Shown piece by piece: positions 1,401 to 29,526 of a stretch of 34,465 nt of DNA. The notes beneath the pieces were generated by a model that saw only the letters and a program-made list of their open reading frames with translations, was not told the DNA's origin and did no database searches. Location: the NCBI GenBank assembly GCA_021372585.1, contig JAJFUD010000006.1, positions 1-34,465 on the forward strand, written 5' to 3'. This stretch comes from a bacterium. Lineage in GTDB: Bacteria > Caldisericota > Caldisericia > UBA6126. Made by a program: the position numbers and the translations under genes. Position 1 is the stretch's first letter, and each line of letters begins with the position of its first letter.

Positions 1401-3035
1401 ATGTTTTGTTACCAATGTGAGCAAACGGCCAAAGGAACGGGATGCACCATTCAGGGCGTCTGTGGAAAAGATGATACAACAGCCACCCTACAGGATGTTT
1501 TGATATTTACCACCGCCAGTATCGCCTATTTTGCCAAAGCACTGTTTGCGAGTTCAAATCAGGATGAGGAGATCAATCATTTTATCATTGAATCACTCTT
1601 CACTACTATTACCAATGTGAATTTCGACCCCGAGCGGTTAATGGACAGAATCCGGCTTGGTGTCAAGTTACGTGAACGCTTGATGAAACGCTATTTAGAG
1701 GGTGGTTTCTATGACCAGCATGATAACGATGCCATGACATCGTTAGCTAGCAAGGAGATTCCCACTTCTCTCGAGGATTGTGTGCGATTTGGAAAAGAAG
1801 TTTCACTAACCACTCACCAAGCTCTCATGGGTGAGGAGCGTGCCGGCTTACTTCACATGATATTATATGGATTAAAAGGTGTCTCAGCATATGCGGATCA
1901 TGCAAAAGTTCTGGGAAAGGAAGATCCCGCTGTCTATACCGAATTCTATAGACTGTTAAGCGTCTATCTGGATCGGGAAGTCTCTTTGGAAGCACTGTTG
2001 GGGTATGCATTGGAGGTTGGTAAGCTGAATTACCGCGTAATGGCGCTGCTGATGCAAGCGAATACCGAAGCTTACGGACACCCGGAGCCAACCAAAGTGC
2101 GCACCACCCCCGTTATCGGTAAAGCGATTTTAGTGTCTGGCCATGATTTATTGGATTTGGAAGCGATTCTGCAACAATCCGAAGGAAAAGGAATTAATGT
2201 ATACACTCATGGAGAGATGCTCCCCACCCATAGTTACCCCGGTTTGAAAAAGTATCCCCACTTCGCCGGTCATTACGGAACCGCCTGGCAAAACCAACAA
2301 ATAGAATTTCCTGATTTCCCCGGACCCATTGTCATGACGACCAATTGTATCCAAAGACCCAGAGATTCTTATATGGACAGGATCTTTACATCAGGATTGG
2401 TGGCTTTCCCGGGAGTCAAACACATAGAGAACCGGGATTTTTCCCCGGTTATTGATAAAGCGCTTGCAACGCCCGGCTTCACTGAAATGACTGCTGAAAA
2501 AACGATTACTGTCGGATTTGGGTACAACGCAGTGATGAACGTGGCAGATAAAGTGCTTGATTTGGTTAAATCAGGCAAAATAAACCACTTTTACCTCATT
2601 GGGGGATGCGATGGAGCAAAGCCCGGCAGAAGTTACTACACTGATTTCGCTGTAAAAGCCCCGAAGGATTCCATTATTCTAACTTTAGCGTGCGGTAAGT
2701 TCAGATTCAATCAATTGGATTTTGGGGATATTGACGGAATACCTAGATTATTAGATGTAGGTCAGTGTAACGACGCTTATTCTGCCATACAAATCGCATT
2801 GAGTCTTGCAAAAGCGCTTAATACCGACATTCATCACTTACCTATCTCGTATATCATCAGCTGGTATGAGCAAAAAGCAGTCGCTATTTTATTGACGCTT
2901 CTCTCCTTGGGTATTCAGGATATTCACTTGGGACCAACTTTACCGGCTTTTGTGAAACCGTCCGTACTAAATGTGCTTGTGGATACATTTCATATCAAGC
3001 CGATCACGACGCCCGAGCAGGATATGGCTGCCTAA
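1401..3035 (+). CDS. hcp: Hybrid cluster protein (hydroxylamine reductase, Hcp), class I
   Basis: Cytoplasmic Fe-S protein that in characterised relatives reduces hydroxylamine or NO in vitro and is linked to nitrosative stress. At 544 residues it has the usual length. The N-terminal cysteines C3, C6, C15 and C21 (C-x2-C-x8-C-x5-C) match the class I [4Fe-4S] pattern of strict anaerobes rather than the enterobacterial pattern. Hybrid-cluster regions are recognisable downstream: THGEMLPTH, MTTNCIQRP, GGCDGAKPGR, LACGKFRFN, VGQCNDAYSA and SWYEQKAVAIL. The ATG is preceded by a strong AAGGAGGG site. It is transcribed alone, divergent from the class V aminotransferase. No Hcr-type reductase gene is adjacent, as is common for class I proteins. 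Confidence 0.97.
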   Translation: MFCYQCEQTAKGTGCTIQGVCGKDDTTATLQDVLIFTTASIAYFAKALFASSNQDEEINHFIIESLFTTITNVNFDPERLMDRIRLGVKLRERLMKRYLEGGFYDQHDNDAMTSLASKEIPTSLEDCVRFGKEVSLTTHQALMGEERAGLLHMILYGLKGVSAYADHAKVLGKEDPAVYTEFYRLLSVYLDREVSLEALLGYALEVGKLNYRVMALLMQANTEAYGHPEPTKVRTTPVIGKAILVSGHDLLDLEAILQQSEGKGINVYTHGEMLPTHSYPGLKKYPHFAGHYGTAWQNQQIEFPDFPGPIVMTTNCIQRPRDSYMDRIFTSGLVAFPGVKHIENRDFSPVIDKALATPGFTEMTAEKTITVGFGYNAVMNVADKVLDLVKSGKINHFYLIGGCDGAKPGRSYYTDFAVKAPKDSIILTLACGKFRFNQLDFGDIDGIPRLLDVGQCNDAYSAIQIALSLAKALNTDIHHLPISYIISWYEQKAVAILLTLLSLGIQDIHLGPTLPAFVKPSVLNVLVDTFHIKPITTPEQDMAA

Positions 3036-3062: not shown

Positions 3063-3076
3063 ACGAGGATTCTCGT
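3063..3076. promoter_or_regulatory. Perfect dyad at the -35 position of the C25 peptidase gene
   Basis: ACGAG-GATT-CTCGT is a perfect 5-bp-arm palindrome. It lies where the -35 box of the following extended -10 promoter would be. A smaller hairpin, TTCCT-TTC-AGGAA, immediately precedes it (3051-3063). No T-run follows, so these are unlikely to be an hcp terminator; an operator is possible. Confidence 0.25.
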
Positions 3077-3089
3077 ATGAAAATCTACA

Positions 3090-3098
3090 TGGTATAAT
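3090..3098 (+). promoter_or_regulatory. Extended -10 promoter positioned for a leaderless transcript
   Basis: TGGTATAAT is a perfect extended -10 element. Its last base is 7 bases before the A of the ATG at 3105, so transcription would begin at or within a base or two of the start codon. No Shine-Dalgarno sequence lies between box and ATG. Confidence 0.7.
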
Positions 3099-3104
3099 AG
3101 AGTC

Positions 3105-6100
3105 ATGGTGATACAAAAAGGGTCCATCCAAAAAAAAAGAGCTGTAGCTATAGTACTCTGCAGTGTTCTATTTTATTTTCTCAGTCTCGGGATTCTTCCA
3201 CAAAGTGCCCTGAATAAAATTGCCGTACCCGTTTCCCTTTGGACATCATTTTCGAACAAGCCTTTCAGATTACCCAGTCGTGTACTTCATCAACAATGGA
3301 ACTGGAGAAGCGAACAAATCATCACAAGGCAAAATGAGGGAAAATTAGTATTATCCCTTCCGGGCAGCAAAACACATTATACCCCTTTGGCCCCAAAGCT
3401 CCCTTATATTTCTGTTTCCATCCCTTTACAAGCGGGTGAATCTGTAGCGTATATCAAAACGACAGGGATCCGCTGGAGACAACTTTCAATTCAAGCGAGT
3501 CTTCTGGAATCGCATCCGGATTTATGCACGATCAGTGGAGAAGAACGATCAGCCATCGCCTTTGGGATTCACCCGGAAAATTGTTATCCTTCATCAAGTT
3601 TTTCTTATACGCTGGTTTATCCTGGGGATCAAGCGGAATGTCAGTTGAAACTGTTTCCGGTTCATGTATGGAAAGACAGGGTATGGCTAATTGATCAAAT
3701 CAATATTAACATCGGCGTAAGCGCTTCCCAAAAACCCAATTTGCCAAAAAATCCGGATGTAGACTCTGTTATCATCTCTCCCGATGAGTTAATGGAAGAA
3801 GCCAAACAACTGGGAAGAATTCATCAAAAAAATGGATATCGCTCCTTGGTAGTTCCCCTTTCTCATATTCAGAAATGGGTTCAATCGGCAGATCCGATAG
3901 AAATCGCTTATATGGTTAGTTACCGGGAAGCCAATAAATCAGAAGTAGTCCAGATACCGGATTACGATTTTAAAACCGCTGATAAAATCAGGGCTTTCCT
4001 GACTCATCTACTGAAAATGGGGCAGATTGACTACCTGACGTTATTTGGTGATGCCACCTATATCCCCCCCTCTGATTATGCGGTTTCAGTACACAATCCT
4101 GATCCTTATGACCGCATGATACCTACCGATTTATTCTATATGGCTCCGGAAGCTGAGGGAAGAGAGATACCTTTAAGAATTATGACGGGCAGAATTCCCC
4201 TCAGAAGTAAAGCTGAGGCCATCAGTTTCCTGAGGAAAACAATCCTGCATCAAATGTCCAAGCAACAAGATTGGTCAAAGTCTGTTGCCTTGTTTGGTGG
4301 GGATATGTTTGAAGATGACTATTACGGAGAGCTGCAAGCCTGCTTCATGGCAAACAATGGTGATTTCGGTGACTTTGCCATAAAAAAGTTTTTTGAGACT
4401 GAAAACAAATACAACCGTGACAGTATTTTACAAGCAATGTCTGAGGAGGATTTTGGATTCTACTTCATGAGTAGCCATGGGCGGGGAGATTATTTACGTC
4501 TTCCGGAAGGGTATATTGATACAATCGATATCATGAACCAGAAACCAAAAACCCATTTTCCGATTTGGGTAAGTAATAGTTGTTTAAATGGAGCTTGGGA
4601 TACAAGGCTATCAAACATCCGGCTGGGTACGGGACCATCATTAGGCATCCCGACTTCCTTTGCAGAATCCCTTCTCTTCTCCAATGGAGGCGCGATTGCT
4701 TATATTGGTGGTGCCAGGGTGAATTATGCCGGAATGGATTATAATTCAGACCTTGGTGAGATGAAGGTATACCAGCTATACAATATTGACGCGATGCTCC
4801 GTTATTTTTTCCAAAGTTATGAAACCAAGGATGAAACACTCGGTGAAGTCTACTTAAAGAGCATCCAAACTTATATAAAACAAGATTTTGACAATGGGTA
4901 TGAACCAACCATCAAAACATTATTTGGCTATTGCTTATTAGGCGACCCTACAACTTCCCTTCCGGATAAGTCTGCATCCACTAAATCACCGATTACCCTT
5001 AAGAAAAAACCAGAGGTAAAAACCGGTCCGATTGATGATGGATCGCCCTTTGTGAATATCTCAGAAAAAAACCATTTTGAGATCAAGTCGCAGGATGAGA
5101 TAGGGTCTGTCAAGCTCTGTGATTACATCCATCCTCAAAACGGTGTGATAGACGAAAATGCACCGGAATGTATCCAAACAGGTATATATCGTTATACCCT
5201 CCCTTCAATCAAAAAAACCAGGTTTGCCTTAAGAATCGAAAATAAGCAGGGCTACGAGATTCGGTATGTAGCTTCAGGCAGGTTTAATCAAGATATTGCA
5301 TTACGCCATCCTTCAATTTACACCCACCTGACAAAAGGAACTCCTTATCAATTTGATTTACCGGTTCAAAATATCGGATTATCCAGCGTTTCCGATATCC
5401 GTATCGAACAAGTCACCCCTGCTGAAGCAAAATACCTTCCATCCCTGCCAAATTTAGATCCCTATAGGGAGTATCCCGTGAAGGTCAACGTTGATACTTC
5501 CGCCTCCGGTACTTTTATCTGGAAGTTTACCTGCCTATCAGCAGAAACAGAGGATATGGATTCGGATGATAACACGATAGAAATTCAATTTGAGATAGTA
5601 GATTCCCCTTATCAACGAATCGGGATAATTGGGTATTCATGGGCCGGATTGAAGGACAATTTGGATGAAACCTTGTCATTAAACAAAGTGAACAGCTATT
5701 ATCAAAACCACCATTTACCAATTGAGGTAAAATCCTTGACAAATCAGGACCTGAGCAACATTGAAGAACTTTCTATCTCAACACTGGTTTTGTATGACAG
5801 CGGATATATCCCAGACCAAGTCACGGCACAGATTCTTAAAAAACATACTTCCAAAAAAGGATCGGTTTTAGTAATGGGATTGTTCGACAATCAGTTCCGG
5901 TCAATGATGGGATATAACAGCAATATCGGCTTTTCATACCATACCGGGGATAGCTCGTTTCAACCATTTTCCCTGATGAGATCCAAACGGGAGCATTTCT
6001 CATTGGATACGTATCAACTACCTTGCTTTGAGAGTTACTCTGTCGCAGGAGCAGATCTGACAGACTCCTTAGGGAAATCCACCTATATTGTTGGATATTC

Positions 6101-6236
6101 AGAAGACCAGATGCTATACCTGATTCAAAACAACCAATGGATAACTTATTCAGGAGTCCTTTCCAAGCTTGATTTTAAAAGATCTGAGGAAACACTATCT
6201 TTCTTTGCTGACCTTCTGCATTACTGTACTAACTAA
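3105..6236 (+). CDS. Membrane-anchored gingipain-like (peptidase family C25) cysteine protease
   Basis: A 1043-residue exported protein. A basic N-terminus and a hydrophobic segment at about residues 13-35 act as signal or membrane anchor. The central part, about 270-620, matches the C25 (gingipain/caspase-like) fold: LTLFGDATYIPPSDY, a PLRIMTGRIPLRSKAEA strand-turn, then the catalytic pair. H458 lies in SSHGRGDY and C493 in SNSCLNGAWD, 35 residues apart as in gingipains. A GGAIAYIGGAR strand follows. Residues about 740-850 look like a CARDB/Ig-type domain. The C-terminal 190 residues resemble a glutamine-amidotransferase-like Rossmann domain. I see no type IX secretion C-terminal domain. Expected role: extracellular or periplasmic proteolysis. 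The gene is probably monocistronic and apparently leaderless. Substrate is unknown. Confidence 0.85.
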   Translation: MVIQKGSIQKKRAVAIVLCSVLFYFLSLGILPQSALNKIAVPVSLWTSFSNKPFRLPSRVLHQQWNWRSEQIITRQNEGKLVLSLPGSKTHYTPLAPKLPYISVSIPLQAGESVAYIKTTGIRWRQLSIQASLLESHPDLCTISGEERSAIAFGIHPENCYPSSSFSYTLVYPGDQAECQLKLFPVHVWKDRVWLIDQININIGVSASQKPNLPKNPDVDSVIISPDELMEEAKQLGRIHQKNGYRSLVVPLSHIQKWVQSADPIEIAYMVSYREANKSEVVQIPDYDFKTADKIRAFLTHLLKMGQIDYLTLFGDATYIPPSDYAVSVHNPDPYDRMIPTDLFYMAPEAEGREIPLRIMTGRIPLRSKAEAISFLRKTILHQMSKQQDWSKSVALFGGDMFEDDYYGELQACFMANNGDFGDFAIKKFFETENKYNRDSILQAMSEEDFGFYFMSSHGRGDYLRLPEGYIDTIDIMNQKPKTHFPIWVSNSCLNGAWDTRLSNIRLGTGPSLGIPTSFAESLLFSNGGAIAYIGGARVNYAGMDYNSDLGEMKVYQLYNIDAMLRYFFQSYETKDETLGEVYLKSIQTYIKQDFDNGYEPTIKTLFGYCLLGDPTTSLPDKSASTKSPITLKKKPEVKTGPIDDGSPFVNISEKNHFEIKSQDEIGSVKLCDYIHPQNGVIDENAPECIQTGIYRYTLPSIKKTRFALRIENKQGYEIRYVASGRFNQDIALRHPSIYTHLTKGTPYQFDLPVQNIGLSSVSDIRIEQVTPAEAKYLPSLPNLDPYREYPVKVNVDTSASGTFIWKFTCLSAETEDMDSDDNTIEIQFEIVDSPYQRIGIIGYSWAGLKDNLDETLSLNKVNSYYQNHHLPIEVKSLTNQDLSNIEELSISTLVLYDSGYIPDQVTAQILKKHTSKKGSVLVMGLFDNQFRSMMGYNSNIGFSYHTGDSSFQPFSLMRSKREHFSLDTYQLPCFESYSVAGADLTDSLGKSTYIVGYSEDQMLYLIQNNQWITYSGVLSKLDFKRSEETLSFFADLLHYCTN

Positions 6237-7013: not shown

Positions 7014-7019
7014 TATAAT
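7014..7019 (+). promoter_or_regulatory. -10 box for the membrane protein / ATPase pair
   Basis: A perfect TATAAT, 55 bases before the ATG at 7074. An AT-rich ATTTTG lies 17 bases upstream as a weak -35. The predicted leader is about 48 bases. Confidence 0.5.
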
Positions 7020-7073
7020 AGTTTATGAAACTTGAAATTTTATTTTTCAGCAGGGGAGAAAAGGGAGAAAAAA

Positions 7074-7676
7074 ATGAATCTTAACAGAAAATCAATTATT
7101 CCGGGCTTATTGCTCATAGCTACAGGGTTATTTATATTTTTTTATCAATGGCAAGGATGGTCACTCAGTTGGTTGAGTTGGCCCTATTACCTTATTCTTC
7201 CCGGTATTTTCATGATTATTTTATCATGGTTCAATGAAGGGGATACCGGGGAGGGGTTTTCCATTTTTGGTTTTATCCTGACAACGATTGGCGGAATTCT
7301 CTGCTTTCAAAACCAAACCAATCTATGGGAAACCTGGGCTTATATGTGGACATTGATTCCTCTCTCGGTGGGATTAGGTCAAATCCTCCATGCACTTATC
7401 TTCCCAAACCCAAATAAAACCCGGGAAGGATTTCGAACTTTCCGAACCGGACTTATCCTGTTCATTATTTTTGCCATCGGATTTGAGTTCTTAATTTTCC
7501 GTCGAAACTATTTCATCAGATCTCATGGTTTCGCAATATTGATCATTCTGACCGGGTTGTTGATTGTCTTTAAAAGTACGGGAAAAAAAATAGATAAGCC
7601 GAAGTCCCACGTTAAACATGATGAAAAGCTCTCTAACCAGGATTTGTCTTCCGAAGAAACAGAAAACGAAATATGA
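7074..7676 (+). CDS. Small polytopic membrane protein of unknown function
   Basis: A 200-residue protein starting MNLNRKS. The ATG at 7074 is preferred over an in-frame TTG at 7032 because GGGAG lies just upstream of it and the membrane segment then begins at once. Hydrophobic helices can be seen at about residues 8-24, 35-50, 62-78, 88-110, 123-140 and 148-163. A hydrophilic tail of about 40 residues follows, rich in K then D and E, and is probably cytoplasmic. The repeated short-helix layout resembles LiaF/DUF5668-type membrane domains, but I do not recognise the protein. It is 11 bases upstream of the ATPase gene and probably co-transcribed. Confidence 0.8.
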   Translation: MNLNRKSIIPGLLLIATGLFIFFYQWQGWSLSWLSWPYYLILPGIFMIILSWFNEGDTGEGFSIFGFILTTIGGILCFQNQTNLWETWAYMWTLIPLSVGLGQILHALIFPNPNKTREGFRTFRTGLILFIIFAIGFEFLIFRRNYFIRSHGFAILIILTGLLIVFKSTGKKIDKPKSHVKHDEKLSNQDLSSEETENEI

Positions 7677-27981: not shown

Positions 27982-29526
27982 ATGAAGAAAGTAGTTTCTA
28001 TTATACACAAGCTTTTGATTATACAATTAGTCATGTTCTGTGCTGTAGGCTGTATCCCATCCGATCAATCCGCCAAACAGCTTGATTCTATGCTGTTGTA
28101 TGCTATGCCTGACGGTGGGTTGCGAATTTTTAATGTACAGAACAAAGAAACCATCTCATTGACTGAAGAAAAGGACTATTTTCCTCACCTTGAACCAACC
28201 TCACAAATGGTCTTTTTTATCCGTTTATTTCTGAATGAGGAAAAAGGGGAGACAATTTCCTATTCAGCCAAAATCATGCAGATGAATCTGAATTCTAAAA
28301 GAATCCGTACCCTATCGACGATAGCTTCCTATAAAACCACACCCTCTTTATCAGACCAGCTGTTTTTCCTTAATGAAGGCAAGATTCTATTAATTCAAAA
28401 CGACCAGCGTATCCGAATGGTGGATACAAAGACCGGGAAACCCATCCCGGAAAACCTGGCACCCTACTTGCCCGAACTCAACCAATGCAGTGAAGATGGA
28501 AAAGCATGGTACATCAGGATCAGGCAAGGGAAGTACCCCTCCTTCTATAAAACAGAGGAGAATTTATTACCTCATCAATATTTCGACTCGATTCTCCGTT
28601 ATCAGGAAAATGGGACCATGACCCCCTGCTTAACCATACCGAAAGACAGGATTTATCAGGATTATATCGATGGGTATGCCTATTCGCAATCGCACTCCTT
28701 GTTGGCTATTGGTTATTCAGGAAAGATTCAAATCCGTGATGCAGGCAATCAGATCGTCGATGAATTTCCGGGAAAACACCCTTATTTCATTAAAACCAGC
28801 CTGCCTGAATCCTCCTTGAACAAATTTCCCCTATATAAAATCCAGGCTTTTGCAGAATTTCAGTCCTATTTTATTGTAGGCAGTCTACATTGGGCTGGAA
28901 GAATACGAAAGCATACTCAGGATTTACAGCTGTTTACTGATCAGGAATTATCGTTGAGTTCACGTGACAATATTGACCCAACCAATCTATTTGACCATAT
29001 TTCCGTTTTTCGGGTAGTCAAGAATCCCCCGTTGCTGATATTGACTTCCGTAAAAGACACGGAGCAGGAAGCCAGTGCAAGCAATGTAATGGCTCTTGAA
29101 GCAGTTCCGGACCAATTAATCGTTCTCAGGCTTGATCAAGAGCTTTGGATCCCCTTGTTACAACTCGGTGAAAAAATCGGATTATTGATGGAATGGAAAG
29201 ACCTTGACCAGGATAAAACAGAGGAGTTGTTGATCCAATATTCTGCTTCCAATTTCAAATGCGAAGGTCGTTTTCAGTCTGCCGGTCGAACTTTGATCTG
29301 GACAGATGTATACCGCTACCACGATGATATTCAGCAATATATCAACGATTCTTCCCTTTACCCTGCTATTTATTCCGCCCTTCTCAAAAAGCTGGAACCG
29401 TTATATGAAAGAGCCCTCACTGCCATTCGATTAAAAGACCCTCTGCTTTGCCAGGAGGATCTTGATAAGCTTGAACAATTAATTGAAGAAGCCAAAACCT
29501 ATGTATCACAGGGACGGAGTTCTTGA
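27982..29526 (+). CDS. Lipoprotein with TolB/WD40-like propeller and FG-GAP-like C-terminus
   Basis: A 514-residue exported lipoprotein. The signal peptide ends in the lipobox CAVGC, lipidated near residue 24. The N-terminal half has TolB/PD40-like strands, with MLLYAMPDGGLRIFN, FPHLEPTSQMVFFI and LLIQNDQRIRMVDTKTGK. Near residue 400 the segment DLDQDKTEELLIQY resembles FG-GAP/VCBS-type calcium loops. The last 60 residues are helical and charged. I do not recognise a specific family. It is divergent from the thioredoxin-M16 operon with only 47 bases between start codons. The last codons (SQGRSS) and the stop lie within a REP-like repeat. Confidence 0.78.
   Translation: MKKVVSIIHKLLIIQLVMFCAVGCIPSDQSAKQLDSMLLYAMPDGGLRIFNVQNKETISLTEEKDYFPHLEPTSQMVFFIRLFLNEEKGETISYSAKIMQMNLNSKRIRTLSTIASYKTTPSLSDQLFFLNEGKILLIQNDQRIRMVDTKTGKPIPENLAPYLPELNQCSEDGKAWYIRIRQGKYPSFYKTEENLLPHQYFDSILRYQENGTMTPCLTIPKDRIYQDYIDGYAYSQSHSLLAIGYSGKIQIRDAGNQIVDEFPGKHPYFIKTSLPESSLNKFPLYKIQAFAEFQSYFIVGSLHWAGRIRKHTQDLQLFTDQELSLSSRDNIDPTNLFDHISVFRVVKNPPLLILTSVKDTEQEASASNVMALEAVPDQLIVLRLDQELWIPLLQLGEKIGLLMEWKDLDQDKTEELLIQYSASNFKCEGRFQSAGRTLIWTDVYRYHDDIQQYINDSSLYPAIYSALLKKLEPLYERALTAIRLKDPLLCQEDLDKLEQLIEEAKTYVSQGRSS

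Follow-up and report, generated by a model that had tools for sequence, protein, structure and literature searches.

We identified an extended −10 element, TGGTATAAT, placed directly ahead of the start codon of an exported C25-family peptidase gene in a Caldisericota bacterium, and we put at about two in three the probability that it is a sigma-70-type promoter giving a leaderless peptidase mRNA, an initiation mode that the gene would share with a minority of others. The gene has no Shine-Dalgarno (SD) site, its start codon is fixed by the surrounding frame, and boxes at the same spacing are enriched before the genes of this genome that lack an SD site. This leaderless reading, put forward in an earlier note made from the letters of the window (the whole 34,465-nucleotide stretch analysed), is the best supported of those considered, but the note's further suggestion that the peptidase would be controlled differently from the rest of the genome was an overstatement.

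An extended −10 element at the start of the peptidase gene

The features at the peptidase start are as follows.

3070–3075, + strand: TTCTCG, the best −35 position, a weak 3/6 match with a 17-bp spacer (from sequence)
3090–3098, + strand: extended −10 element TGGTATAAT (from sequence and from positional enrichment before no-SD genes of the genome)
3105, + strand: predicted transcription start at the first base of the ATG, with a CA initiator (from spacing)
3105–6236, + strand: gene for an exported C25-family peptidase of 1043 aa (Pfam PF01364, E 1.6e-42, residues 222–619)
3105–3212, + strand: predicted signal peptide region MVIQKGSIQKKRAVAIVLCSVLFYFLSLGILPQSAL (hydrophobic stretch; needs a start at 3105 or 3108)

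The element is present on the + strand as the earlier note had described it, and so is its close placement; the gap, AGAGTC, is however six bases long and not seven, a harmless difference of one. With a six-base gap, the A of the ATG (3105–3107) is the seventh base after the −10 hexamer. No good −35 element was found upstream of TGGTATAAT, where TTCTCG is the best match. Extended −10 promoters tolerate the absence of a good −35.

A search of the assembly for 16S rRNA found none, and the anti-SD sequence was therefore taken as the common tail; the tail given for Caldisericia is ACCUCCUU (PMC10783764). The best anti-SD duplex upstream of the peptidase ATG reaches only −2.9 kcal/mol, whereas the 304 genes called in a 433-kb sample of the genome have a median of −7.45 kcal/mol. 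This agrees with the earlier observation that no ribosome binding site precedes this ATG. The accompanying remark that most neighbours have strong SD sites is roughly right, but 10 of the 24 window genes are weaker than −4 kcal/mol, several of these being operon-internal or having uncertain starts.

Upstream, the reading frame is closed by an in-frame TGA at 3078, with no start codon from there to 3105. Downstream of a GTG at 3108, the next start codons in frame are two TTGs (codons 95 and 181), both without an SD site. At the encoded N-terminus a KKR stretch is followed, starting at residue 13, by hydrophobic residues with a mean hydropathy of 2.58 over 19 positions, resembling a signal peptide. 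The stop at 3078, the lack of a nearby alternative start codon and the position of the signal peptide together place the start at 3105 (or 3108), and no later start with a ribosome binding site, which the earlier note had named as one of two findings that would overturn it, was found.

The protein scores 146.6 bits against PF01364, for which the curated cut-off is 23, and is thus a member of the C25 domain family; SSHG and NSC motifs are visible in its translation. It resembles the gingipain/PorU type of family C25 in the shared domain with His/Cys motifs and in predicted export, and differs in being shorter than most homologues read, in falling below the PorU cut-off and in coming from a Caldisericota. 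Against the NCBIfam equivalog of the T9SS sortase PorU it scores 42.2 bits, far below the cut-off of 420. Solved structures gave no sequence-level match to the peptidase. Larger C25-like open frames of ~2200 codons occur in relatives and in this genome (L004, L005, L009, L010 and L012), sometimes paired on one contig (G003:C44, G002:C137).

From the features at the peptidase start we infer that the element acts as a promoter, and also exactly where transcription starts and how translation begins. Transcription would proceed from the extended −10 element and start at or within ~3 bases of the A at 3105, most likely at the CA step that this A completes. Translation would then rely on direct recognition of the 5′-terminal AUG, not on Shine-Dalgarno pairing. 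Leaderless initiation in bacteria is described as proceeding mainly by 70S particles that bind a 5′-terminal or near-terminal AUG (PMC9031893).

A mini-ORF and the hcp gene upstream of the peptidase

Two features upstream of the peptidase could serve a different route.

1401–3035, + strand: hybrid-cluster/prismane protein gene (hcp) with a strong SD site, co-directed with the peptidase gene (profile match, duplex energy)
3077–3097, + strand: six-codon mini-ORF MKIYMV with a strong SD site, GAGGA, −9.2 kcal/mol (sequence, duplex energy)

The main rival to the leaderless reading is a leadered transcript, produced by read-through from hcp or by a promoter upstream of 3060, on which ribosomes would load at the SD site of the mini-ORF and re-initiate at the peptidase ATG. 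The mini-ORF, which shares bases with the −10 element, is read in a different frame from the peptidase and ends with a stop 7 bases before the ATG. Its strong duplex favours this route, as does its rarity, since an out-of-frame ATG with a strong SD site at most 60 nt upstream was found for only 4 of the 226 genes tested (~2%). The same holds for the 69 bp that separate the co-directed hcp and peptidase genes, between which a terminator-like site was looked for and none was found. Against it, the SD site of the mini-ORF may be part of a hairpin, ACGAG-GATT-CTCGT (though folding of the region as a whole is no stronger than that of shuffled sequences), the relatives read have hcp with no recognisable C25 gene after it, and a perfect extended −10 element at leaderless spacing is left unexplained. 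We regard read-through with re-initiation from the mini-ORF as a genuine though unlikely alternative, and it could operate together with the leaderless route.

−10 boxes before genes without SD sites

The genome is a metagenome-assembled genome of class Caldisericia, 1.88 Mb in 104 contigs. Its RpoB shares 99% identity with that of a metagenome-assembled 'Caldisericia bacterium', and the hits that follow likewise belong to Caldisericia/Caldiserica. A scan for −10 boxes before starts without SD sites, as the earlier note had proposed, was run on the 433-kb sample (the window plus 20 stretches), in which the 304 genes were called by a hexamer model with our own gene caller and their starts are unverified. 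Genes with a duplex weaker than −4 kcal/mol were classed as no-SD, and 62 such genes had a full upstream stretch. A box matching at least 5/6 positions at a gap of 5–9 precedes 11 of these 62, compared with 2.6 in dinucleotide shuffles (P 0.001), and perfect boxes at this gap number 3 against 0.23. The enrichment persists without the window (9 vs 2.1 in shuffles) and when starts are picked regardless of SD sites (16 vs 4.6). Among SD genes with free upstream DNA, by contrast, a box at gap 5–9 occurs in 1 of 99, and their −10 boxes lie further upstream, at a distance that leaves room for a leader. By difference, and extrapolating from the 433-kb sample, leaderless genes would make up ~8 of 304, or roughly 2–3%.

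These counts also bear on whether the TATAAT is fortuitous, lying as it does in an AT-rich gap, with the promoter elsewhere and SD-independent translation of a leadered mRNA. The frequency of TGNTATAAT in the window is close to chance (3 observed vs 1.86 expected), so the motif is not rare by itself, and across the whole genome TATAATN{5,8}ATG occurs 115 times and TATAATN{12,15}ATG 113 times, with no spacing-specific excess. At the observed position, however, TGN with a perfect box (TGNTATAAT at gap 5–9) is found before 2 of the 62 no-SD genes compared with 0.01 in shuffles, which makes a chance match improbable.

Against the reversed pattern, TATAATN{5,8}ATG is up ~1.5-fold in this genome and ~twofold in many others. 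Because this excess disappears against N{12,15}, only the gene-anchored test was used for this genome, and the lack of a spacing-specific excess means that its leaderless class must be small; a class of 2–3% of genes would hardly shift a bulk pattern count. The excess over N{12,15} is gone in this genome and its family and kept in several other families (143 vs 90 in G006, 179 vs 104 in G017). Among 54 Caldisericota genomes, N{5,8} counts exceed N{12,15} counts in the families of G006, G011, G014, G017, G048 and G052, and not in the window's own.

When other Caldisericota genomes were examined with the gene-anchored test, a box at gap 5–9 preceded 10 of 30 no-SD genes in G006, from another family, compared with 1.8 in shuffles. 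An excess was confined to genes with free upstream DNA in G003 (3 vs 0.56) and in G007/G008 (5 vs 2.0); when all no-SD genes of G007/G008 were counted, the enrichment was not significant. The G002 sample showed no enrichment of the −10 box before no-SD genes.

No orthologue of the peptidase was found in public genomes, and within the order (six genomes) there are only ~30% identical C25 homologues that look paralogue-like. Nearly all C25 homologues with readable starts have strong SD sites. The least probable alternative, which we consider very unlikely, takes the true start to be the ATG at 3077, which has a strong SD site and is separated from 3105 by a short homopolymer, with a one-base difference in the A-run at 3080–3083 (an assembly error or recent mutation) hiding the frame; but an assembly error is unlikely in a four-base run, the joined signal-peptide n-region would span ~21 residues against roughly 5–12 in the homologues read, and since the same joining could be proposed for every upstream ATG in another frame, the possibility is weak evidence.

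Since no orthologue was found, conservation of the leaderless arrangement can be followed only at other candidates.

27982–29526, + strand: second leaderless candidate of the window, TATACT 7 nt before the ATG, no SD site, no Pfam match (from sequence)
L056:7973–9550: PTPase/R3H-domain ATPase gene, TATACT at gap 9 (from sequence)
L064:1179–2060: rsmH candidate, no SD site, TATAAT at gap 7 (from sequence)
L055:4604–6460: lepA candidate, no SD site, −10 box 7–8 nt before the start (from sequence)

Homologues of the first two retain the arrangement in other genera. For the 27982 family these are 23–24% identical proteins in G002 and G003, with TATAAT 6 nt before the ATG. In G004, TATAAT stands at gap 9 before the orthologue of the PTPase/R3H ATPase (61% identity), and the G002 and G003 orthologues have strong SD sites, as if the gene had exchanged one initiation signal for the other between genera. 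The rsmH box was checked in relatives and is not retained there. At a further candidate, L057:16917, the box is conserved only in one very close relative, and the G004 homologue appears to carry an SD site. Box enrichment before no-SD genes and homologues that keep the arrangement together indicate that the peptidase probably belongs to a minority leaderless class. As other no-SD genes, including the rsmH and lepA candidates, show the same arrangement, the notion of control unlike that of the rest of the genome finds no support.

In the window, at 7014–7084, a TATAAT is followed after 5 nt by the ATG of a 19-codon ORF running into the beginning of a LiaF-TM-like gene (ATG 7074); this ORF is a possible leaderless leader peptide.

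Relation to known leaderless genes

Arrangements of this kind have been described as TA-led genes, which have a TANNNT box ~12 bp before the start codon and no SD site; a survey of 953 bacterial genomes reported them in about 206, with orthologues switching between SD-led and TA-led (Zheng et al. 2011, PMC3160421). The peptidase is alike in the placement of its −10 box and in the missing SD site: the second base of the box (A, 3094) lies 11 bases before the ATG at 3105, inside the 8–14 that defines TA-led genes. Our estimate is a low share, close to the bottom of the range reported for other phyla. In Deinococcus-Thermus, a −10 motif a few bp before ORFs is the promoter of leaderless mRNAs and needs no −35 (Zhong et al. 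2025, PMC12340547); there the class comprises ~30% of ORFs and was reporter-tested, whereas here it amounts to a few percent estimated from sequence.

The string "Caldiseric-" was not found in the text of PMC3160421, and in a search of full-text literature for leaderless together with Caldiserica the only mention concerns the Caldisericia anti-SD tail (PMC10783764). The arrangement itself is thus of a known kind, and only the phylum-level statement may be new. That statement, towards which the evidence leans slightly, is that across families of Caldisericota leaderless mRNAs are a regular second mode of initiation, with genes switching between SD-led and leaderless between genera.

Leaderless genes are known from several bacterial phyla, and the present analysis contributes computational evidence from a phylum of which very few members are in culture. 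Gene callers favour SD sites, and some starts in Caldisericota genomes have none. If the peptidase mRNA is leaderless, expression of the peptidase would be set mainly by its promoter and by ribosomes initiating on a 5′-terminal AUG, and not by a ribosome binding site.
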